A DNA stretch of 20,812 bases from a virus, in the IMG/VR virus record IMGVR_UViG_3300035698_011045, positions 1 to 20,812 of that record; one strand, 5' to 3'. Every line of letters begins with the position of its first letter. Position 1 is the stretch's first letter. Below the pieces are notes generated by a model. That model was not told the DNA's origin, did not search any database, and saw only the letters and a list, made by a program, of their open reading frames with translations. The position numbers and the translations under genes are program-made. Of this stretch, positions 2,956 to 18,016 are shown one piece after another.

Positions 2956-3921
2956 ATGGAAACGTTATTAAAACAGTACCATGATTTAAAAGAAGCAAAC
3001 GCTTCGACTGACTTTCCTAAGATATTAGCGAATGTTATGCACAAAGCGTTGATGAGTAAATTCAGGGGTGTCAATTCGCCTTGGCGAATGTATACCTTAC
3101 AAAGTAATATGTCTGATTTTAAGACACATAACCGCGTATGGTTAGAGGAAGCTCCTGATTTAGTTGAGGTTGAAGAAGGCGGACCGTATGAAGGTTCAAG
3201 CGTTGATGAGCAAGGATATGATATTGCTTTGAAAACATTTGGTCGGACTTTCAGTATCACTCGGAAATCAATTATTAATGATGATCTTGATGCTTTAAGA
3301 CGTCAGCCAGAACGATTCGGTCGTGCGGCAGGGCGTACATTAGCAAAGGCTGTTGTTGATAAAATTGAGGGTGATGGTAATACGTATGATGGGACTTCTT
3401 TGTTTACAGTAGCGCATGGGAATAGTGGTGATACAGCGTTAGCTAATACAGACGCAGGAATTGTGGCTGTTTCGGCTGCTATGACCGCTATTGAACGATC
3501 CACAGATGAAAATTCTGTATTAATGGGGATCAAAGCTAAGTATCTTGTTGTTCGTGATGAGTTAAAAGATGCAGCTATGCGTGTTGTTAATGGGACTTGG
3601 CGTGTTCCTGTTACGACTACTGGTGGGACCACAGAGGTCGGACAGGTTAAGCAGTTAGAAGTTGTTGTTGAGTCGTTTTTAACAAGCTCGACTGCTTGGT
3701 ATGTTATGGCAGATCCGTCAGAAGCGCCAGTTGTAGAAGTGGGTTTCTTGCAAGGAAAGCAGGAACCGGATCTTTTAGTGAAACGTGCTGACACAGTTTT
3801 TGCAGCAGGTGGCGGTGAAGATCCTTGGGGTTATGAGTTCGATGATCTATTTTTCAAAGTACGATATGACTATGCATTAGCTTTGGCTATGTATCAGGGT
3901 ATCTACAGAGGAAAAGCGTAA
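2956..3921 (+). CDS. Major capsid protein (HK97 fold)
   Basis: A 321-residue protein that should build the icosahedral shell. The sequence around residues 94-131 (F-G-R-T-F-S-I-T-R, then I-N-D-D-L, then F-G-R-A-A) is the conserved core I associate with the Mu gpT-related group of HK97-fold capsid proteins, followed by an L-F-x-x-x-H-G-N motif near residue 149. Residues 60-90 (E-A-P-D-L, then E-E-G-G-P-Y) fit the region before the spine helix. There is no long N-terminal delta domain, which agrees with a separate scaffold upstream. The start has AAAGGA at 2944-2949. A strong hairpin just downstream could protect the transcript or limit read-through. Which Pfam capsid family it joins needs a profile search. 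Confidence 0.85.
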   Translation: METLLKQYHDLKEANASTDFPKILANVMHKALMSKFRGVNSPWRMYTLQSNMSDFKTHNRVWLEEAPDLVEVEEGGPYEGSSVDEQGYDIALKTFGRTFSITRKSIINDDLDALRRQPERFGRAAGRTLAKAVVDKIEGDGNTYDGTSLFTVAHGNSGDTALANTDAGIVAVSAAMTAIERSTDENSVLMGIKAKYLVVRDELKDAAMRVVNGTWRVPVTTTGGTTEVGQVKQLEVVVESFLTSSTAWYVMADPSEAPVVEVGFLQGKQEPDLLVKRADTVFAAGGGEDPWGYEFDDLFFKVRYDYALALAMYQGIYRGKA

Positions 3922-3988: not shown

Positions 3989-4366
3989 ATGAGTTTTACA
4001 TTTGATACAAGCACGAATATTGGTAAAGTAAGGACGTTGATCGGTGATACTGATTCAACGAGTTATCTTTTATCTGATGAGGAAATACAAGTCTTTCTTA
4101 CTTTGGAAAGTAACGATCTATATGCTTCGGCGGCTGGTTGCTTACGTAGCATCGCATCAAGTAAAGCCTTGCTCGAAAAGGTAATTAAAGCAGGAAATTA
4201 TTCAGAAGATACTCGGGGAATCTCTAAGGCCCTTAATGATTTGGCAAATAAATATGAGAGTAGATCGGCAAATGTTCCGGCAGAAGGATGTTCCGAGGAA
4301 TATCTTACAGCGTTTAATTGGAATGAAATTCTTACAGACAGGGCGTTAAGAGGGGAAATAAATTAA
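3989..4366 (+). CDS. Head-tail connector (adaptor) protein
   Basis: A 125-residue protein with the pattern of gp6/gp15-like head-tail adaptors: a V-R-x-L-I-G-D-T-D motif at residues 14-22, then L-L-S-D-E-E-I-Q-V-F near residues 47-56 and an A-A-G-C-L-R-x-I-A helix. These proteins form a ring under the portal and start the neck. The start follows AAGGAG at 3975-3980. The last base of its TAA is the first base of the next ATG, so the first cargo gene is translationally coupled to it. Confidence 0.8.
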   Translation: MSFTFDTSTNIGKVRTLIGDTDSTSYLLSDEEIQVFLTLESNDLYASAAGCLRSIASSKALLEKVIKAGNYSEDTRGISKALNDLANKYESRSANVPAEGCSEEYLTAFNWNEILTDRALRGEIN

Positions 4367-5061
4367 TGGATTTACCTAAGAATCAAAGTCATATTGTATG
4401 TAAAAATAAGTTCATAGGCGATGATTTATATATATTAGGTTCTGGATACTCTATGAGCTTTATTGATAAAAGTTTTTTTGATCGCAAGATAACAATAGGT
4501 GCTAATTTAATGTATCGTCAATTCCCTATTAAGTATTCAGTGATTAAACACAAGCAGTTTATTGAAGAAGCTGTTGAAGAAGGGCAGATCGTAATTGCGT
4601 CTAAGCATGATTGCGGAGATATCGAGCATGAATTAAATCCATTAGGAGCGAACTATTATTTTACTCATAAGAAGGGAAGGTTCGGAGAGCTTGAAGAAAA
4701 CTTTATTGAGAATATTAATTCAATTGGAAAAGACGATGATATATTCGTTAGCTATAGCACAATAACAAGTTGCATACATCTTGCTGCATATATGGGTGCA
4801 AAGAATATTATTATTTGCGGGCATGATTGTGGTTGGCTCGACGATAGATCGCACATTGATGGCTATCAGGAAAGGTTAGTTGACTTTTATGAGAAGGAAG
4901 AAAAATTTAATGAATATTATAACGGATGGTTTGAGCGTATTCAGAATGATACAATAAGGCTGAAAGCAAAACTAAAGGAAGTATATAAGTGCAACATTTA
5001 TTCATTGAATCCATTTATTAATTTTGGGCTAGAAGGACATACTTATGTTACCACAAAATAA
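4366..5061 (+). CDS. DUF115/MptE-like protein, likely glycan-related
   Basis: A 231-residue soluble protein. Residues 21-29 (L-Y-I-L-G-S-G-Y-S) give a nucleotide-binding-type glycine loop like that of the DUF115/MptE-like family and of Cst-I-type sialyltransferases. Residues 145-160 (A-K-N-I-I-I-C-G-H-D-C-G-W-L-D-D) form a second Rossmann-like strand and loop with conserved-looking His and Asp. Such proteins are often found in surface-glycan and flagellin-glycosylation loci. No membrane segment or signal peptide. A GAGGGGA site lies inside the upstream gene, the start overlaps that gene's stop by 1 nt, and the end overlaps the radical SAM gene by 17 nt. Alternative roles include a methyltransferase-like or pterin-kinase-like enzyme. 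Family moderate, function inferred. Confidence 0.55.
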   Translation: MDLPKNQSHIVCKNKFIGDDLYILGSGYSMSFIDKSFFDRKITIGANLMYRQFPIKYSVIKHKQFIEEAVEEGQIVIASKHDCGDIEHELNPLGANYYFTHKKGRFGELEENFIENINSIGKDDDIFVSYSTITSCIHLAAYMGAKNIIICGHDCGWLDDRSHIDGYQERLVDFYEKEEKFNEYYNGWFERIQNDTIRLKAKLKEVYKCNIYSLNPFINFGLEGHTYVTTK

Positions 5062-5986
5062 TGAAATTAGGATCGAGCCAACAAATCTTTGTCAATATAA
5101 TTGCAGCATTTGTTTAAACGATAAGCTCAAAAGAAAAAAAGAAATTATGAGTTTTGATTTATTCAAATTACTTATTGACAAAATAAAAATAGCAACAGAC
5201 CAATATGACACATTGACATTTGCTGGAATAGGTGAAGGTCTTATCAATCCAGAACTAACACGAATGGTTGAGTACGCTAGTAATCTTGGATATAAAACAT
5301 TACTTGTTTCTAATGGAGATTTGCTAACGCTAGATAAATTTAAAGAGTTACAAGATGCCGGATTATTTTCTGTGAGGATTAGCTTTCATGGAGCGACGCC
5401 TAAATCGTATCAGTTGCTTCATGGCGTCAAGCCTGAGTTATTTTATAAAGTTCAATCTCAAGTATTTGAAATTCTTAGCTTGCCTGAAAGACAGACAGAA
5501 GTTCTTCTTACGCATGTCGTAGTTCCTCATGTAAACGATTTTCATTATGAAATTGATTTATGGAAAAAGATGTGGGAAGGGCGAGGCGCTGATTGCATGG
5601 AAGTATGGCGTGTTCATAACTGGGCTGATAGTCTTGGTCATAGGAAAGTCAATGTATCTAAGAAGAACGGATGCGGAAGAATAACAGAAGGACCATTGCA
5701 AATTCAAGTTGATGGAACAGTTAACGCATGCTGTTTTGATTATGATGGATTATTGCTTTTAGGAGATCTTAAAACTCAAAGTTTAGATAAGATATTTTTA
5801 TCAGAAGAATATCTTGATTTAAAGAAAAGGCATTGTTCAGGTAATTTTTTGAATTGTGATTATATCTGTAAGAAATGCGATCAAAGAAACGCCGATAAAT
5901 CTGAGGCATTAATTTATAGTTCAAGGTTTCCTGATTTAGAAAAAAGGGTTAAACTAACATCAACAGCATATAGTGAGGTAGACTAA
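5045..5986 (+). CDS. Radical SAM protein with SPASM-like C-terminal domain
   Basis: A 313-residue enzyme. Cys16, Cys20 and Cys23 form the CxxxCxxC motif that binds the [4Fe-4S] cluster which cleaves S-adenosylmethionine. F-A-G-I-G-E-G at 59-65 is the usual glycine motif. The C-terminal part (from about 205) has Cys210, a V-D-G-T-V-N-A-C-C strand with Cys229/230, and Cys264, Cys271, Cys275 and Cys278: a SPASM-type domain that binds auxiliary clusters. Such enzymes modify peptides or act in sugar and surface-polymer pathways. The substrate is unknown. AGAAGGA at 5030-5036 precedes the start, and the gene lies between a DUF115-like and a methyltransferase gene with overlaps on both sides, so it belongs to the cargo cassette. 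Confidence 0.85.
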   Translation: MLPQNNEIRIEPTNLCQYNCSICLNDKLKRKKEIMSFDLFKLLIDKIKIATDQYDTLTFAGIGEGLINPELTRMVEYASNLGYKTLLVSNGDLLTLDKFKELQDAGLFSVRISFHGATPKSYQLLHGVKPELFYKVQSQVFEILSLPERQTEVLLTHVVVPHVNDFHYEIDLWKKMWEGRGADCMEVWRVHNWADSLGHRKVNVSKKNGCGRITEGPLQIQVDGTVNACCFDYDGLLLLGDLKTQSLDKIFLSEEYLDLKKRHCSGNFLNCDYICKKCDQRNADKSEALIYSSRFPDLEKRVKLTSTAYSEVD

Positions 5987-6540
5987 TGAACCTTATTAAT
6001 TTAGCATTTTTGGCAAATGAAGTATTGCCGACACCTTTGGAAAATTTAATATCTATTGAAAAAGATACTGTGATTAATAAAGGAAAGCCAGCGCATTATT
6101 ATAGGTTTCTTCATTACTTGGCTAACATTAATAAACCAAAAATTGTTGTTGAGTTTGGAACATGGAAAGGTGTTAGCTCTGCTTGCTTGCATGATGGGTG
6201 GCCAAAAGCAAAGGTTATCACGATTGATATTAAGAATATGGTAATCGGAGAAGCAAAACGAAACATTGATTACCGCATGAACTCGGATAATATTTTAGAT
6301 GATATTGATAAAATAGACCTTTGTTTTATTGATGTTGAACATTCTTATGAATGTACGATGTCTATGGTAGATAAGATAAAAGATAAGATGGCTGATCAAA
6401 GCATTATTCTTTTTGATGATATTACTCTGAATGAGGGCATGAAAGAATTTTGGAATGATTTGGATATAGGCGGAAAAAAGATTGAGCTTCCTGTTCATGG
6501 GGACGCTGGATTCGGGGCAGTAATATTCGGAAGTTATTAA
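5986..6540 (+). CDS. Class I SAM-dependent methyltransferase
   Basis: A 184-residue protein with a Rossmann methyltransferase core. Residues 54-62 (V-V-E-F-G-T-W-K-G) are motif I, which binds SAM. Asp81 in I-T-I-D-I is the acidic residue that usually holds the ribose hydroxyls. I-D-V-E-H-S-Y at 115-121 and L-F-D-D-I at 142-146 match motifs IV and V of the cephalosporin-hydroxylase/MTase_24-like group, common in polysaccharide gene clusters. The likely substrate is a sugar or other small group, but this is not shown. The start overlaps the radical SAM stop by 1 nt (TAATG), with GTGAGGTAG just before it. No signal peptide or membrane segment. Confidence 0.75.
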   Translation: MNLINLAFLANEVLPTPLENLISIEKDTVINKGKPAHYYRFLHYLANINKPKIVVEFGTWKGVSSACLHDGWPKAKVITIDIKNMVIGEAKRNIDYRMNSDNILDDIDKIDLCFIDVEHSYECTMSMVDKIKDKMADQSIILFDDITLNEGMKEFWNDLDIGGKKIELPVHGDAGFGAVIFGSY

Positions 6541-6575
6541 CAGATGGCCAACGAGCCACAACAAGGAGGATAAGA

Positions 6576-7574
6576 ATGAAGATTGTTCATGAAATAAACC
6601 AATTAGATCGTGGAGGAGCAGAGCGCGTTATTCGGAATATCATCAAGTTTGATGATGAGAATGAGTATACAATCATTGCATACAAGGATGGAGATTATAA
6701 ACAAGATCTCGAAGAAGCAGGCGCAAAGGTTGTTATTCTAGGGGAAAAGGATAATCTGGACTTAGAAGCAGATTTAATTCATATCCATAGTGGCGGTGGT
6801 ATAAGCTCTATGGCGTTAAATCTAGGCAAGGAACTACCTGTGCTAGAAACTATCCATTCGCCTCTTAGATCGCCAATGAGGGACGAATTTATAGTAAAGA
6901 GGGTTGGCGTGTCTGATGCGGTAACAAGAATGAATAGTAATTGCGTTACAATTAGGAATGGGATTGATTTGGATGAGCTTAAAATAACAAGAGAACATGA
7001 CGAAGTTATGGAAGAACTCGGCATCCCTAAAGGTAAAAAGGTAATAGGAAGGCTCGGCCGCTTAGGTAAAGATAAGGGACTTGAAACATTCCTATTGGTT
7101 TGCAAGAAATTACAGGACAAAGGGCATGATTTCGTTCCTCTTATTGTTGGTGGGGAAGCGCGGGACCTTGATGGATATATCGGTAAACTTAAATTAATGG
7201 CCGATTGTTTGCCTCTTGAGAACGTTATCTTCACAGGAGAGAAAACTGATATTGCAAATTACCTTCAAATCATGGATGTGTTTCTTTATCCATCGCCAAC
7301 AGAAGGATTTGGGCTTGCATTTATTGAAGCGATGTATATGCAGAATATCGTTGTTTCATATAACAATGATGTGAATAGGGAGATCATCGGAGGTCATTCA
7401 ATATTAACTGAAAACTCAATTGATGCGCTTGCTAAAGGTGTCGAGAATGCGCTTGATCAGAATGTCATCGATGCTTTATTGGGTAGTCAAATGAGGTTTG
7501 TAGAAACAGAATATTCGGCAGAAAGAATGTCGATTGATTATCAAAATCTTTACAAGGAATTAGTGAATGTCTAA
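6576..7574 (+). CDS. Family 4 (GT-B) glycosyltransferase
   Basis: A 332-residue soluble GT-B enzyme. The N-terminal half has D-R-G-G-A-E-R-V at 11-18, the acceptor-side loop common in GT4 enzymes, and I-H-I-H-S-G near 69-73. The C-terminal half has a G-R-L-G-K-D-K-G phosphate-binding loop at 161-168 and the EX7E motif with Glu243 and Glu251 (E-G-F-G-L-A-F-I-E), which binds the donor nucleotide sugar with retention of configuration. Slightly short for the family, but both Rossmann halves are present. A CAAGGAGG site at 6561-6568 precedes the ATG. The end overlaps the neck gene by 8 nt, so it is coupled to a structural gene. Donor and acceptor are unknown. Confidence 0.85.
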   Translation: MKIVHEINQLDRGGAERVIRNIIKFDDENEYTIIAYKDGDYKQDLEEAGAKVVILGEKDNLDLEADLIHIHSGGGISSMALNLGKELPVLETIHSPLRSPMRDEFIVKRVGVSDAVTRMNSNCVTIRNGIDLDELKITREHDEVMEELGIPKGKKVIGRLGRLGKDKGLETFLLVCKKLQDKGHDFVPLIVGGEARDLDGYIGKLKLMADCLPLENVIFTGEKTDIANYLQIMDVFLYPSPTEGFGLAFIEAMYMQNIVVSYNNDVNREIIGGHSILTENSIDALAKGVENALDQNVIDALLGSQMRFVETEYSAERMSIDYQNLYKELVNV

Positions 7575-8394
7575 TTTAACGGACATATTAACAGGACGCA
7601 TCGATCTTAAACGGCTCACGAATTTGCTTCTTGCGCCAACGGCTTTATCGGCATCGATGAGTTTCGATCGTAATCCTGATAGGACATCAAGGCTTGAAAT
7701 AACAATTGATGGCGCATCGATTACTAATGGACTGGTTAGCGTCACCGGAATAGGTTCAGGCGTGCTTGAGGAATATGTTTTGCAGGATAGAACGCTCCCG
7801 CAGAAATGGGCGTTCCGTATTGTTAATGGCGTTATTAATGCTCAAGAAGTTGAGGACGTTGCAAGCTCTGAGCCAGTTGTTCCTGACAATTTAGATTCAA
7901 CGAAATACTGGAAAATCTTTATTGATAACGGAATTATTGGTGCAGAAGCAACAAGTGAAGTCGTTGGGTTAACTCAAACCAATGATCCTATTATTGAACA
8001 GATCCAATTTGCTGAGGATGGTATTCAAGTAGGAACGAGCGACTTCTTAACGATGTCAGGTTTAACAATATCCGGCATCGATGGCGGGACAATTACAGTC
8101 AGAGCAATTGACGAATTAGGTCAGCCTATTAATAAGGAAATCGTTGCGGAATCAAATATGCCGATTAGATGGTATACACAAAACGGTCATATTCGCATGA
8201 TGGATCAAGGGCAGGAAAAGATTGCTCAATATAAAATGATGGCGGGACCATTAAAAGATGTTCAGGAGAACGATATTGTTTATGCATTATCGGGAGTATT
8301 CGGATTAACAATTGGCGAAGTTTCTTTCTCAGAAAAGATATATGACTTTGCAGGATTAACGCATCATACCGAAGCGGAGGTGATGGAGTTATGA
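7567..8394 (+). CDS. Putative neck protein (head-tail stopper-like C terminus)
   Basis: A 275-residue beta-rich protein without signal peptide. Residues 1-200 look like tandem Ig-like or beta-sandwich modules (S-R-L-E-I-T-I-D-G near 41, then a second L-T-I-S-G-I-D-G-G-T-I-T-V segment near 165). Residues 210-275 end in D-F-A-G-L-T-H-H-T-E-A-E-V, which resembles the end of small head-tail stopper (head closure) proteins. The position, between the connector and the tail completion genes, fits this. AAGGAA at 7554-7559 precedes the ATG. The stop overlaps the next ATG (ATGA), coupling it to the triple glycosyltransferase. The stopper call is an inference from the C terminus and the gene order. Confidence 0.5.
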   Translation: MSNLTDILTGRIDLKRLTNLLLAPTALSASMSFDRNPDRTSRLEITIDGASITNGLVSVTGIGSGVLEEYVLQDRTLPQKWAFRIVNGVINAQEVEDVASSEPVVPDNLDSTKYWKIFIDNGIIGAEATSEVVGLTQTNDPIIEQIQFAEDGIQVGTSDFLTMSGLTISGIDGGTITVRAIDELGQPINKEIVAESNMPIRWYTQNGHIRMMDQGQEKIAQYKMMAGPLKDVQENDIVYALSGVFGLTIGEVSFSEKIYDFAGLTHHTEAEVMEL

Positions 8395-10820
8395 CAAACG
8401 AAAGGACAGGTACAATGATACCAAAATATTCAATCGTAACAGTAGCATTTAATGAAATTGATTTAACAATTAAATGCATTGAAAGTGTGTTTACATACAC
8501 AAAGGATTTTGAATTAATCATCGTTAATAATAATTCTAAAGATGGGACAAAGGAGTATTTAGATTTTTTATCAACGAAGTATGACAATTTAAAAATCGTT
8601 CATAGTGAGAAAAATTTAACATTCGCAGAAAATAATAACATCGGATATAATGTTGTCGACGAGAAATCAGAGTTTGTTATCTTTTTAAATAACGATACTG
8701 AGGTTACTCCTGATTGGCTTCAAAGAATGGAAGCGCATTATGACAATGTTGATCTTGATAACGTTGGGTGTATTGGACCAGTCAGTTCTTCATCTAACGG
8801 AAAGCAGGGAGTAGGCATACAAAAGTCAGAACAATGGCATTCAGAAAATCACAGTAAATGGATTCATACTGGCGTTCTTTATGGCTGGTGTATGATGTGG
8901 AAAAAGAAAGTTCTTGATGAAATTCTTGAGGATGGAAAAGTATTTGATGAGCAATTCACAAACTCGCATGAGGATAATGATTTATGTTTGCGGGCGCAAT
9001 TAGCCGGATATAAATTACTGATCGCTTATGATACATACATTTATCATAAAGGACAGGGATCTCTTTTCGGTAGCGGTATGTATGATGAAAAGTCTTATAT
9101 GGATAATGGGTATGTTAATCGTGAGCGTTATTACGATAAGCATTACGGCACAGAAAAGAAAAAGCTAGTTGCTGTATATCGTACTAACGGAGGAGAGTGG
9201 CTTGAGCAATCGCTAGAGCAGACAAGTAAGTTTGCTGATAAGATTATTCTGCATTTTTGCCGGACAAATTTATCAGAGGATGAGATATTAGAATTATGTG
9301 TTAAATTCCCAAAGATTTATAAATGGGAAAGATACGACGGAATATTCCAAGAAGATTATGAGCGCAACTGGTTATTGCAAGAGGCTCTTAAATTGCATGA
9401 AGCTGGCGAAGCTGATTGGTGTATCTCGATTGATGATGATGAGATATATGAGAATAAGTTTATTGATCGGGTTCAATCAATGATGAATCCTCGTAACCCG
9501 GAAGTCATGGCGTACTGGTGTCAATGGCGTACGATTTGGCGCAAAGAGAACGGTAAGGAGTATTATCGTTCCGATTCAACGTTTGGAAGTTTCTCAAATT
9601 ATCGGTTCTTTAAGTTAATGCCTAACCAAGAAATTATGTCAAGGCATCATCCAGAAGGGCATCATTGCGGATCAGCGCCGTTAATATCTCAAGAGAATCT
9701 TAAGTGGTCAGCGATTAGGGTTAAGCACATGGGATATGACACGCCAGAACAGCGCCAGAAAAAGTTTGAATTTTATGAGGCGAACGATCATTTCAAAACA
9801 AAAGCCGACATTGGATTTGATGATTATTCTCATCTTATTGATCGTAATGTTGAGCTTGAGGAGTATGTTGAGGGCAATGGAATAACTTGCACAATGATGG
9901 TTAGAAACGAGGAAGAGTATATTGTTGGGTGTTTGGAACAATGTCAGGATATTGTTGATGAATATGTTGTTGTTGATACAGGATCAACTGATAAGACAAT
10001 TGCTCTTATTGAAAACTTTGCAAAGTATTCTCATGTTCCTTTTAAGTTTTTAAAAGGCCCGGAAGAGTGGGTATATGAAAAAGGTCATGAATTTGAAGGA
10101 AGATTAAAGAATTATTCTATTCCTCGAAACTTCACACTTGATCAAGCGACAAAAAAATGGATTCTTCATCTTGATGCTGATGAGCGTATTGCTCCACAGG
10201 ACTTCCCTAAACTTGTTAAGATAACAGAAGGTGAAAGCGATCTAGCAATCTTTCATGTAATTAATTATCTTGAGAAATGTAAAAGCCCAAATGTTCAGCC
10301 AAAATACGCGTCAAGTGAATCTGTTCGGCTTTTCAAAAAAAGCGATCAGCTTTATTACACAGGAGTAATTCACGAAACGCTTGATGATGCTCTTTCTGCA
10401 TATCGTCAAAGTGGGAAGATTGGAGTTACACGCGCGCCGTTCGTTCTCCATCATTACGGCTATTTGAAGAAACGAGAAGTTGTCAAGAATAAACTTGCTT
10501 ATTATGAAGAGTTAAACAAGAACCAAAGTAAGATCACAGATGATAAAGATCCACGACCTCATTTTAATCTTGCTTTACATTATCTTGAAGAAAACAATGA
10601 TGCGAAAGCGCTTGAATGTTTTCAGAACGCTTTATCTCTTAATCCAAAATTCTGGCATGCTAATCATCAAATGGCTTGTATGAATATTAAGAGCGCAAAA
10701 TATTTTCTTGCTAAAGCATTAAAAAGTATGCCCCAAGAACATCCTTTCTTAAAAGAAGGAAAAGAGATTTTTAAATATTTAAGTTCAAAGACGTTCGAAC
10801 AAGCAAAGGTTTGTGCATGA
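8391..10820 (+). CDS. Multi-domain glycosyltransferase: three GT-A domains plus TPR-like tail
   Basis: An 809-residue soluble protein. Domain 1 (about 12-255) is a GT2 enzyme: N-N-N-S-K-D-G-T at 46-53, F-L-N-N-D-T-E at 98-104 in the DXD position and H-E-D-N-D-L at 193-198. Domain 2 (about 258-480) is a more distant GT-A-like unit with I-D-D-D-E-I at 347-352. Domain 3 (about 497-690) is a SunS/WcaA-type GT2: V-R-N-E-E-E at 504-509, V-D-T-G-S-T-D-K-T near 528, and L-D-A-D-E-R at 594-599. Residues 720-780 look like one or two TPR helices (N-L-A-L-H-Y-L-E-E-N). No membrane segment. It overlaps the neck gene and is followed by a tail gene. The ATG at 8391 has GGAGGTG upstream (8377-8383); an ATG at codon 9 is an alternative. 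Domain 2 is the least certain. Confidence 0.8.
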   Translation: MTNERTGTMIPKYSIVTVAFNEIDLTIKCIESVFTYTKDFELIIVNNNSKDGTKEYLDFLSTKYDNLKIVHSEKNLTFAENNNIGYNVVDEKSEFVIFLNNDTEVTPDWLQRMEAHYDNVDLDNVGCIGPVSSSSNGKQGVGIQKSEQWHSENHSKWIHTGVLYGWCMMWKKKVLDEILEDGKVFDEQFTNSHEDNDLCLRAQLAGYKLLIAYDTYIYHKGQGSLFGSGMYDEKSYMDNGYVNRERYYDKHYGTEKKKLVAVYRTNGGEWLEQSLEQTSKFADKIILHFCRTNLSEDEILELCVKFPKIYKWERYDGIFQEDYERNWLLQEALKLHEAGEADWCISIDDDEIYENKFIDRVQSMMNPRNPEVMAYWCQWRTIWRKENGKEYYRSDSTFGSFSNYRFFKLMPNQEIMSRHHPEGHHCGSAPLISQENLKWSAIRVKHMGYDTPEQRQKKFEFYEANDHFKTKADIGFDDYSHLIDRNVELEEYVEGNGITCTMMVRNEEEYIVGCLEQCQDIVDEYVVVDTGSTDKTIALIENFAKYSHVPFKFLKGPEEWVYEKGHEFEGRLKNYSIPRNFTLDQATKKWILHLDADERIAPQDFPKLVKITEGESDLAIFHVINYLEKCKSPNVQPKYASSESVRLFKKSDQLYYTGVIHETLDDALSAYRQSGKIGVTRAPFVLHHYGYLKKREVVKNKLAYYEELNKNQSKITDDKDPRPHFNLALHYLEENNDAKALECFQNALSLNPKFWHANHQMACMNIKSAKYFLAKALKSMPQEHPFLKEGKEIFKYLSSKTFEQAKVCA

Positions 10821-11311
10821 CAATAAGTGGAACACAATTAGTTGCGGGTAATATCACTCGGTTTGGTGGTGGGTTTATCAAGCATGTTAATACAACTATG
10901 AAATTGGTTGAGAGCATGCTTGATCGCAGAGTAACGCGTAACATATCCTTAACCGATCATAGCCCTAGTGATTTGGCTGCATTAGATCATCCTTATGCTT
11001 CAAGGCATGGAAGCAAAGGTTTGCAGATTCATGATCCATATTGGTCCGTACATAGTCAATCTGGCAATTTATTAAGATCAAAGAAAAGTGGAACTGAAAA
11101 GGCTTCGGTTACTGGTGGTAATTTAAAAGCATCGGCGTTCGTTGGGATTAATGATAATGGCGCGCCGTATGCAATATATATTATTTATGGAACAAGCAAA
11201 ATGATCCCAAGAGATTTCTTGGAGAATAGTAAATCAGAAGTTGAAGGACAGGCTGTTGCTTTAATAGGGAAAAACCTAAAGAATCTTGTCACGAATTTTA
11301 GGGGGAAATAA
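10817..11311 (+). CDS. HK97 gp10-like neck/tail completion protein
   Basis: About 164 residues. I place the start at the ATG at 10817, which overlaps the upstream stop as ATGA and has AAAGG at 10805-10809; a TTG two codons earlier (10811) is possible but less likely. The basic, helical N terminus, the G-I-N-D-N-G-A-P-Y-A central segment, and the G-T-S-K-M-I-P-R-D-F-L motif near the end are typical of HK97 gp10-like proteins, which join the neck to the tail. The stop overlaps the next ATG by 1 nt. It restarts the structural order after the large glycosyltransferase. Confidence 0.75.
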   Translation: MTISGTQLVAGNITRFGGGFIKHVNTTMKLVESMLDRRVTRNISLTDHSPSDLAALDHPYASRHGSKGLQIHDPYWSVHSQSGNLLRSKKSGTEKASVTGGNLKASAFVGINDNGAPYAIYIIYGTSKMIPRDFLENSKSEVEGQAVALIGKNLKNLVTNFRGK

Positions 11312-11727
11312 TGTCAGTCGAAAGTAATGTATTTGAAAAAATAAGAAAAGTGTTAATTGCTGACGCAACGCTTAATCGTTATGTTAATAAACGTGTGTAT
11401 GCAAGCCATCCAAGCACGATTGCTCAACCAAAGTTTCCAGCTATTTCATTATTTCTTTTAGAATCTGCTGAAAATGAATCAATTCATAGCGCAATAGATA
11501 TGCGTATTCAGATTGATATTTGGGCTTCAAATAAAGATTATAATGTGAAAGATATGTTTGATATTAAGCAGAGGATTCGCGATCTTTTACATAAGCAGGA
11601 TTTAACAGATTCAGCGGTCGATGTTGTTTTTCATAATATTACAGAGCAACAAGGATCTCCTTTGATGCATGAATATGATACAAATTTATATCATCTAGGG
11701 GTTCGATTCAAAGTGAGGGCAGTATAA
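11311..11727 (+). CDS. Tail terminator/completion protein (DUF3168-like)
   Basis: A 138-residue protein with the layout of small tail terminators: an N-terminal helix (F-E-K-I-R-K-V-L), a V-Y-A-S-H-P strand near residue 29, an I-Q-I-D-I-W-A strand near 66, and an end reading Y-H-L-G-V-R-F-K-V. These cap the tail tube and join it to the neck. AGGGGGAAATA precedes the ATG, which shares one base with the upstream stop; its own stop shares one base with the next ATG. Lies just before the tail tube region, as expected. Confidence 0.75.
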   Translation: MSVESNVFEKIRKVLIADATLNRYVNKRVYASHPSTIAQPKFPAISLFLLESAENESIHSAIDMRIQIDIWASNKDYNVKDMFDIKQRIRDLLHKQDLTDSAVDVVFHNITEQQGSPLMHEYDTNLYHLGVRFKVRAV

Positions 11728-16075: not shown

Positions 16076-16272
16076 CAAATGATTTTAATTGCGAAGCGAT
16101 GGAACAAAAGATTAAGGATAATATCGTAAGGGGCTTTTCTGTTAAAAAAACAGAAATATTATTACTTGAAGAACAGCTTGAAAATACAAAAAAGATTTTT
16201 ATAGCTGAACAGAGAAACGTTGAGCTTCAAGATCAGATTGAATACATAAGGACAAATTATGCCGGGAAATGA
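16072..16272 (+). CDS. Small helical protein of unknown function
   Basis: A 66-residue charged helical protein (L-L-L-E-E-Q-L-E-N-T-K-K, then E-L-Q-D-Q-I-E-Y-I), probably a short coiled coil. It overlaps the upstream stop as ATGA and the next gene by 14 nt, so it is embedded in the operon and likely translated by coupling. No family recognised. A minor tail assembly factor is possible. Confidence 0.6.
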   Translation: MTNDFNCEAMEQKIKDNIVRGFSVKKTEILLLEEQLENTKKIFIAEQRNVELQDQIEYIRTNYAGK

Positions 16273-18016
16273 TAGTTTCACAAAACTTCTTTTGCATTTT
16301 GATGGCTTAGATGGAGCTGTCACAACTTCCGATTCTTCTCCTTCTGCTCATGGTGCAGCAACCTTCGGAGGAACGGCACAGCTAGATACCGCACAAAAGA
16401 AATTCGGTGTTTCTTCTTTATTTCTCGATGGGAATAGTGACTATATAACATTTCCTTATAACGCAGATTTTGATTTGATGGGGGACAATGCAGAAGATTA
16501 TGTGTTGGAAGCGGTTGTAAGATTTGCTGACTATACAGTAGAACAATGTATTTTTTCACAATATAAGAATGCCACTAATTTTTGGCATTTAAGAGCAACG
16601 GCGAGCCATCTTGGATTTTCATTTGCTAAAACTGGTGAAGCAACTATAGACATAGTTGGCGGTAATTTTTCTGCAAATAAGATTTGGTATCATGTTGCGC
16701 TTGCCAAAATAGGGACTTCTATCAAGTTATTTGTGGACGGCGTTAATATCGGAAGCGTAACAACATCTTTAGAAAGTTCTTTGGCGAGTGTATTGAACTT
16801 TGGAAGGAGGGGCGACGGTTCACAATTTTTTGGTGGCCATATAGATGAAGTGAGAATAAGCAAAGGCATTGCAAGATGGACAGCAAACTTCACACCGCCA
16901 ACGCAAGCATATAATGACGCTCCAAGTAAATTTTATGTTTATCTAAAGAATAGAAGCGGAAAACTTATTAAAGTTATAAATGATAAGTTAGCAACTCTCA
17001 GCTGGCGATGGGATAGATTAGGAGGTTGCGGGCAAGGAAGTGTTGTATTAATTGCAGATGAAACTTGGCTTAATGATGTTGGACCAGACTATGAAATCAA
17101 TATTTATCTTGGAGGAAAATTGAGATATGCAGGAATTATTAATTCTCATAAACCAAAAGAAAATAAAGGAGTTAATCAATCTGTCTTATCTTTTTTAGGA
17201 TATTCTTCTCAAATAAAAAGAGTTCTCGTCGAGAAAACATATACATCGCAGAATTTAACTGATATTTTAAAAGATATTCTTGATACGTTCATAATTCCAA
17301 ATACAGATATAACTTATGACGATGCTGATATAGGCCAGTTTAATTTTGTTCCTGACATTCTTGAGTTAGATACAAATGGCGGTAATGCAATAAAAACATT
17401 AGCTGGGCTTGCAGGAAGCGTTGAATATGGTGTTGATGCGAATAAAAAGTTTTTCTTTAAATCAACATCTAATATTGTCGGATTTAATCTAAAGTATACA
17501 AAAGAATTAAGCAATGTTGACATCATTAATGATTATAGTGGAATTGTTAATCGTCTTATAATTTTAGGAAAAGATAGCTTTAAAGATACGGCGAATAATA
17601 CTGAAAGTCAATCAGCGTATGGTTTAAGAACACAGACACAATCTGTTTCATCAATAAGTACAACGGGTGTTGCTCAACAATTTGGGACATCAATATTATT
17701 AGAAAAAGCAGCAATAAATCAAAAAGCTAAATTTACAGTGGAAGAAGATTCACGATTTTATGAGGAAACTTTACCTTTACAAAAAGTAAAATTATTAGCA
17801 CGAACAGTTATTGAAGCAAAAAAATATGGTGATGCTGATGCTATATATGGCGACTTTGCTTATGGTGGAGAAACAAATTATCAGATAAATAAATTAACTT
17901 ATTCTTTACAGAATAAGAAAGTAAAAACAACAATTGAAGCAGGATTTAAACGGCCTGATCTTGCGGAAGAAATAAAAAGAATACAATTTGAGATAGATCA
18001 AATAAGGAGTTCATAA
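16259..18016 (+). CDS. Tail hub (Tal-like) protein with N-terminal LamG domain
   Basis: A 585-residue protein. Residues 1-215 form a concanavalin/LamG-like lectin domain: L-L-L-H-F-D-G-L-D-G near 9, S-L-F-L-D-G-N-S-D-Y-I near 53, W-Y-H-V-A-L near 142, I-K-L-F-V-D-G near 154, and G-H-I-D-E-V-R-I-S-K-G near 192. From about 220, the F-Y-V-Y-L-K-N-R-S-G-K start and the beta-strand pattern of a hub (gp27/Tal-like) protein follow, ending in a short helix. The hub closes the tail tip and starts membrane contact. The lectin domain may bind a cell-surface sugar. AAGGACA precedes the ATG. The LamG call is strong; the hub call rests on position and pattern. Confidence 0.75.
   Translation: MPGNDSFTKLLLHFDGLDGAVTTSDSSPSAHGAATFGGTAQLDTAQKKFGVSSLFLDGNSDYITFPYNADFDLMGDNAEDYVLEAVVRFADYTVEQCIFSQYKNATNFWHLRATASHLGFSFAKTGEATIDIVGGNFSANKIWYHVALAKIGTSIKLFVDGVNIGSVTTSLESSLASVLNFGRRGDGSQFFGGHIDEVRISKGIARWTANFTPPTQAYNDAPSKFYVYLKNRSGKLIKVINDKLATLSWRWDRLGGCGQGSVVLIADETWLNDVGPDYEINIYLGGKLRYAGIINSHKPKENKGVNQSVLSFLGYSSQIKRVLVEKTYTSQNLTDILKDILDTFIIPNTDITYDDADIGQFNFVPDILELDTNGGNAIKTLAGLAGSVEYGVDANKKFFFKSTSNIVGFNLKYTKELSNVDIINDYSGIVNRLIILGKDSFKDTANNTESQSAYGLRTQTQSVSSISTTGVAQQFGTSILLEKAAINQKAKFTVEEDSRFYEETLPLQKVKLLARTVIEAKKYGDADAIYGDFAYGGETNYQINKLTYSLQNKKVKTTIEAGFKRPDLAEEIKRIQFEIDQIRSS

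Follow-up and report, generated by a model that had tools for sequence, protein, structure and literature searches.

The five enzyme genes that lie between the capsid and tail genes of one tailed phage probably form a cassette by which a virion protein is O-glycosylated in the cytoplasm; the product would be a multi-sugar, O-methylated, and possibly radically oxidized glycan. The phage is known from the linear IMG/VR virus record IMGVR_UViG_3300035698_011045, and its whole length of 20,812 bases is called the window here. The enzymes are a DUF115 protein, a radical SAM protein, a methyltransferase, a GT4-family glycosyltransferase (GT), and a multi-domain GT (Table 1). The listing of open reading frames (ORFs) confirmed the initial annotation of this DNA, and the genes lie at 4366-7574 and 8391-10820. 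Its domain calls were also upheld: PF04055 and PF13186 for the radical SAM protein, PF13578 for the methyltransferase, PF00534 for the GT4 protein, PF00535, PF13704, and TPR for the multi-domain GT, and a sub-threshold PF01973 for the DUF115 protein. The enzymes do lie between connector, neck, and tail genes as described, with the refinement that a sixth ORF (7567-8394), which does not encode an enzyme, sits inside the cassette. Counted from the head-tail connector gene through to the tail terminator, the gaps at successive junctions are -1, -17, -1, +35, -8, -4, -10, and -1 nt, in agreement with the annotated overlaps of 1 to 17 nt with a sole exception. The enzymes were said to have no membrane segment, and the highest 19-residue Kyte-Doolittle mean among the five is 1.31, which is below membrane-segment strength. 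The GC content at third codon positions is 0.24-0.34 for the enzymes and 0.29-0.36 for the head and neck genes and, because these values resemble each other, composition does not point to a recent acquisition.

The cassette was found in two other viral contigs that are independent of the window: L010, which was recovered with a two-sequence capsid alignment, and L098, which was recovered with a DUF115 alignment. A seven-protein capsid alignment was too diverse as a search query. The records of all three phages are fragments. In L010 (major capsid protein, MCP, 55%), the order of the five enzymes and their neighbors are identical to those of the window. In L098 (MCP 61%), the order is connector, methyltransferase, GT4, stopper-like gene, second methyltransferase, DUF115, radical SAM, and multi-domain GT, the last being interrupted by the contig end. 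Compared to the window, the pair of DUF115 and radical SAM genes is shifted across the stopper gene, and the methyltransferase is duplicated. The five-gene order, which the initial annotation proposed to look for in related contigs, is thus retained in one relative and rearranged in the other, with all five genes present in both. The connector-like gene is kept at the equivalent place in L010 and L098. Amino-acid identities among the three phages are 37-67% for the enzymes compared to 50-68% for the head decoration protein, MCP, and connector, the enzymes being conserved to a similar degree. The recurrence of the five genes between equivalent neighbors in two other phages goes beyond chance. 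Since the content was kept while the order changed, the comparison argues for a functional unit maintained in the late operon rather than a passive hitchhiker. In all three phages, then, phage-encoded GT genes are maintained together with virion genes.

Outside this clade, the cassette is missing in the sets compared. The capsid searches yielded 87 loci, and matches to the radical SAM, DUF115, GT4, and methyltransferase proteins are confined to the window itself and L010. Of 50 more distant MCP-related virus records, none has a GT2 domain. The cultured relatives RcKvothe, PBb001, and MD8 have only small structural genes from the capsid gene to the tail terminator. The radical SAM protein, the multi-domain GT, and the 275-aa stopper-like protein were each used alone to scan IMG/VR and GTDB genomes, and none of them gave relatives; a wider GTDB scan with a two-sequence radical SAM alignment gave a single remote partial match, in a Nitrospirae metagenome-assembled genome. 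No close cassette was found among GenBank phages, which do include SPbeta/Listeria-type relatives of the third domain of the multi-domain GT.

Related genes were seen at the same location in phages with other capsids. In one group (L093-L096, L121, L122, L125, L127, L128, and L130-L133), a DUF115 gene lies between a different, HK97-type capsid gene and a gp6-like connector gene. The order in this group, in which some contigs are partial, is GT4, GT2, and DUF115, and several members have a 282-aa gene without a family. At two more loci (L104:1107-2620 and L115:9995-11489), DUF115 and another gene, which looks GT-like, are flanked by yet another capsid protein and a connector. These lineages, at least two by their capsids, have no detectable relation to the window's capsid. 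Glycan-building genes were therefore inserted between capsid and neck, independently, in at least three capsid backgrounds. Such recurrent placement is a correlation, and it is more readily explained by a function directed at the virion than by serotype conversion. Serotype-conversion genes are usually found outside the late structural operon.

Neither the window nor L010 has a sugar-nucleotide gene of the families searched (NeuB and GDP_Man_Dehyd-type). The absence of such genes reported earlier thus holds for the 20.8-kb record, but it does not extend to the contig behind L098, where a dTDP-glucose 4,6-dehydratase-like gene (L143:433-1437) lies upstream of terminase. Genes for NeuB, a radical SAM protein (PF04055), an aldo/keto-reductase-like protein, a dioxygenase-like protein, and DUF115 are clustered at 2158-12284 of L108, a 136-kb virus record. 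The cluster also has RmlA-like, RmlB-like, and NeuA-like genes, which were named by reading the sequence, and it is probably a phage nonulosonate pathway.

The DUF115 protein scored 30.9 bits against PF01973 (MptE-like), which does not reach the curated cut-off of 34.6. An AlphaFold2 model built from five sequences (pLDDT 65, pTM 0.72) matched the folds of MptE (Z 12.2), the flagellin glycosyltransferase Maf (5mu5, Z 11.9), and the GT42 sialyltransferase Cst-I of Campylobacter (2p2v, Z 10.8), the last two over 173-181 residues; the Cst-I/II entries as a whole gave Z 9-11, and unrelated rows of the search were at Z ~4. Maf differs in being a larger, multi-domain protein. As MptE ties with Maf, the modeled fold by itself would be insufficient to settle the activity. 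The genomic context of the wider viral family separates the tied candidates. Of 50 viral records that hold a member of this DUF115 family, 16 (some of them near-duplicates of each other) also encode NeuB. In each of these, NeuB lies no more than ~7 kb from DUF115 within the flanks retrieved, and a NeuA/PseF-like cytidylyltransferase gene often immediately adjoins DUF115 in these records. Because of this context, the best reading of the DUF115 protein is a cytidine monophosphate (CMP)-nonulosonate-type transferase. 6-Hydroxymethylpterin pyrophosphokinase activity, the function of MptE, was rejected on the sub-threshold PF01973 score and the NeuA/NeuB context, despite the tie in fold. In an alignment of 30 viral members, the glycine-rich motif G-S-G-x-S, D20, N47, K61, H101, S131, S135, H138, Y142, and GHDC are near-invariant and may include the donor site and catalytic residues.

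The 809-aa GT has three GT-A domains (residues ~14-220, 260-490, and 498-700) followed by a TPR region, in which TPR_2 is above its cut-off. A D-x-D motif is present in the second domain (DDDE, 348) and the third (DADE, 595), and the first has NNDT at 100-103. The third domain matched GmaR (8e-14 over 499-694) and SunS (7e-7 over 497-759), the latter alignment running into the TPR part. Its score against the SunS equivalog TIGR04195 was 2.3e-9 and 36.6 bits, where the cut-off is 350, and this makes it a relative of SunS rather than SunS proper. The window protein thus has a GT-A domain homologous to those of GmaR and SunS with an adjoining TPR region. GmaR and SunS are soluble protein or peptide glycosyltransferases. 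In FlmG, another flagellin glycosyltransferase, the acceptor is bound by the TPR domain (PMC7591256). The likeness to GmaR (22ao) and SunS (7msn/7msp), which comprises the GT-A domain, the DADE/DADN motif, and the alignment of SunS into the TPR region, is the strongest single pointer toward a protein acceptor. Unlike in those enzymes, the domain in the window is fused behind two more GT-A domains in one protein.

The radical SAM protein has the cysteines C16, C20, and C23 (CX3CX2C) and a single auxiliary set (C210, C229, C275, and C278), all invariant in four of four homologues, namely those of the three cassette phages and of phage C48C1. The full seven-cysteine SPASM motif is absent, since no CX5CX3C half follows C275-x2-C278 and there is no cysteine beyond 278. 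The earlier assignment as a radical SAM/SPASM enzyme therefore held for the radical SAM part, and the cysteines define a twitch architecture with one auxiliary cluster in place of a full SPASM domain. A SPASM maturase of ribosomally synthesized and post-translationally modified peptides (RiPPs) was rejected as its identity by the cysteine count. The closest solved relative is BtrN (3.9e-15 by profile), the twitch radical SAM dehydrogenase of butirosin biosynthesis, which shares the arrangement of C16/C20/C23 with one auxiliary cysteine set and acts as a two-electron dehydrogenase on an amino-cyclitol (PMC9012708). Identity to BtrN is only remote, and oxidation of a sugar or cyclitol of the BtrN type is a prediction for the phage enzyme. 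BlsE and DesII, which act on sugars, appear in the sequence and fold lists, but MoaA, GDGT-MAS, and SkfB do so equally and, because the lists are mixed in this way, the substrate class is a lead rather than a result. As the structure model is poor past residue 190, the fold search backs the barrel only. The protein also has a conserved W-x-x-H-N-W motif, which is shared by the radical SAM/SPASM relative (26-28%) in C48C1 (Kyanoviridae; L006:11959-12945). The C48C1 gene lies near genes for a Nol-like carbamoyltransferase and a glycosyltransferase, outside the head-neck operon. The methyltransferase is of the COMT/YrrM type, with profile matches to O-methyltransferases (1.2e-6) and COMT (0.01). 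Its residues D116, D144, and D145 are invariant in the alignment and are linked to the COMT metal site by motif position only.

The ORF inside the cassette encodes a 275-aa protein in which the C-terminal ~98 residues are conserved and the N-terminal ~175 residues are added. The homologues in L010 (115 aa, L010:9175-9522, weak DUF6093) and L098 (212 aa, L098:8771-9409) are at the equivalent place. The protein would, by its location and length, be a head-tail stopper that carries a variable extension at its N-terminus in two of the three phages. This addition is a candidate for an exposed glycan acceptor domain.

The initial annotation had hypothesized a cytoplasmic glycan pathway tied to the virion genes. 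A conserved pathway of this kind is supported because the cassette is kept with connector genes in three phages, because two of the GT components resemble protein glycosyltransferases (Maf and GmaR/SunS), and because the equivalent placement recurs in unrelated phages. From these observations we infer the other part of the hypothesis, that the product is carried by capsid or tail proteins, as well as the order of steps, the identities of the sugars, the virion acceptor, and the benefit. The cassette would be expressed jointly with the head, neck, and tail genes. The GmaR/SunS-like domain with its TPR region would most likely put the first sugar on a newly made virion protein, and the chain would be extended by the other two GT-A domains, the GT4 protein, and the Maf/sialyltransferase-like DUF115 protein, one of which could instead carry out the attachment. 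The O-methyltransferase would then methylate the chain, and the BtrN-like enzyme may oxidize or otherwise edit a hydroxyl-bearing sugar carbon. Shielding of the particle or altered binding could be the benefit to the phage. A more specific proposal, which we put forward tentatively, is a branched O-glycan on a neck or capsid protein with a nonulosonate-like end and a sugar that is O-methylated and radically oxidized (keto- or epimerized), with the junction of MCP and connector as a recurrent insertion site for glycan genes of this kind in unrelated tailed phages.

Several points weigh against O-glycosylation of virion proteins by this cassette. The full cassette was found in only three phages, all on fragments, the analysis yielded neither an acceptor protein nor an acceptor site, and co-transcription with structural genes leaves their products unproven as substrates. 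Others concern the DUF115 protein, whose model is of modest confidence and scores MptE equal to Maf. A profile of 30 members gave nothing significant against PDB sequences and did not reach Maf or Cst, and NeuB is on none of the three (fragment) records of the window's own clade.

An unlikely alternative is that the enzymes act on a glycan of the host surface (O-antigen, capsule, teichoic, or flagellar) and remodel it against superinfection or for a change of receptor, and that the location of the cassette in the late operon is incidental. Polysaccharide operons commonly hold GT4, GT2, and methyltransferase genes, the GT4 protein matches PEP-CTERM/exopolysaccharide and teichuronic GTs, and DUF115 lies within the sugar cluster of L108. 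However, no membrane anchor, flippase, polymerase, or undecaprenyl-phosphate transferase is visible in the window, the third GT domain is nearest to protein and peptide glycosyltransferases, and the placement among late structural genes, retained in the three phages, is also seen in unrelated phages. Timing and operon position also favor virion substrates over flagellin, pilin, or another protein of the host that would be modified by the Maf-/GmaR-like activity of the phage. Flagellar genes are not encoded nearby, and we give this explanation little chance, although Maf (5mu5) and GmaR, the best analogues by function, both have flagellin as their substrate (Maf: PMC7591256).

Modification of nucleic acid or of a small peptide was considered as well. 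DNA-glycosylating phage GTs exist (Pyle et al. 2024, cited in PMC12619734), and the enzymes could glycosylate or hypermodify the phage DNA, but this is very improbable. The genes sit in the late head-neck operon, and a gene of the thymidylate-synthase/hydroxymethylase type was not found on the three fragment records, for which thymidylate synthase was the one searched. To our knowledge, the GmaR/SunS- and Maf-like enzymes do not include any DNA glycosyltransferases. Slightest of all is the chance of a RiPP-like pathway, in which the radical SAM enzyme would modify a peptide and the SunS-like domain would S-glycosylate it. SunS itself is a peptide S-glycosyltransferase (TIGR04195 match 2.3e-9), and RiPPs are substrates of many SPASM enzymes (PMC9012708). 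Yet a short precursor gene was not noted inside the cassette of the window or L010, and the one-cluster twitch domain is nearest to BtrN, whereas many RiPP SPASM enzymes have two auxiliary clusters.

Virion glycosylation as such is already known; it has been established experimentally in a few mycobacteriophages and shields particles from antibodies (PMC12363180). Che8, Corndog, and Myrna resemble the window in having phage-encoded soluble GTs and proposed virion-protein glycans, which are at the C-termini of capsid and tail-tube proteins (Freeman et al. 2023, via PMC12363180, PMC12619734). The novelty here is the combination of enzymes and their placement. In contrast to the mycobacteriophages, the window has its five genes interleaved with connector genes, and its glycosylation is a prediction. 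It adds a Maf/sialyltransferase-like enzyme, a GmaR/SunS-like GT with TPR, an O-methyltransferase, and a BtrN-like radical SAM protein. Together with the recurrent Maf/sialyltransferase-like genes at the capsid-connector junction, the conserved cassette of these environmental phages suggests that decorated virions are far more widespread and chemically richer. Phages with this defined gene set, which includes a radical SAM enzyme, would be recognizable by gene order alone. If the proposed pathway is true, the editing of a virion glycan would be a first for a radical SAM enzyme.

Table 1. Genes of the cassette and its flanks in the window.
Feature	Position	Strand	Basis
Major capsid protein, left anchor (non-enzyme)	2956..3921	+	PHROG 4523/133, E 3e-60 and 1e-53
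Small head-tail connector-like protein, directly 5' of cassette	3989..4366	+	Position between MCP and cassette; phrog_1732/18316, both PHROGs without a function
DUF115/MptE-like protein; predicted Maf/GT42-like (nonulosonate-type) glycosyltransferase	4366..5061	+	PF01973 sub-threshold; model; NeuA/NeuB context
Radical SAM protein with twitch (half-SPASM) domain	5045..5986	+	PF04055, PF13186; BtrN profile match
Class I O-methyltransferase, COMT/YrrM-like	5986..6540	+	PF13578 2.5e-10; profile matches
GT4-family (GT-B) glycosyltransferase	6576..7574	+	PF00534 6.3e-27
Stopper-like neck protein, 275 aa (non-enzyme)	7567..8394	+	Homologues at equivalent place in L010, L098
Multi-domain GT, 809 aa: three GT-A domains and TPR	8391..10820	+	PF00535, PF13704, TPR
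Neck1/tail-completion protein, right anchor	10811..11311	+	phrog_5 1.2e-7
Tail terminator	11311..11727	+	PF11367, phrog_78/176

The genes across the window are late genes of a tailed phage, with protease, head decoration, MCP, and connector-like genes followed by the cassette and Neck1. The tail terminator, tube, chaperone, tape measure, Dit, tip, and fiber genes lie 3' of Neck1. The N-terminal region (~6-221) of the tail-tip protein (16259-18016) matches PHROGs of baseplate wedge and virion structural proteins and has the appearance of a LamG-like carbohydrate-binding domain.

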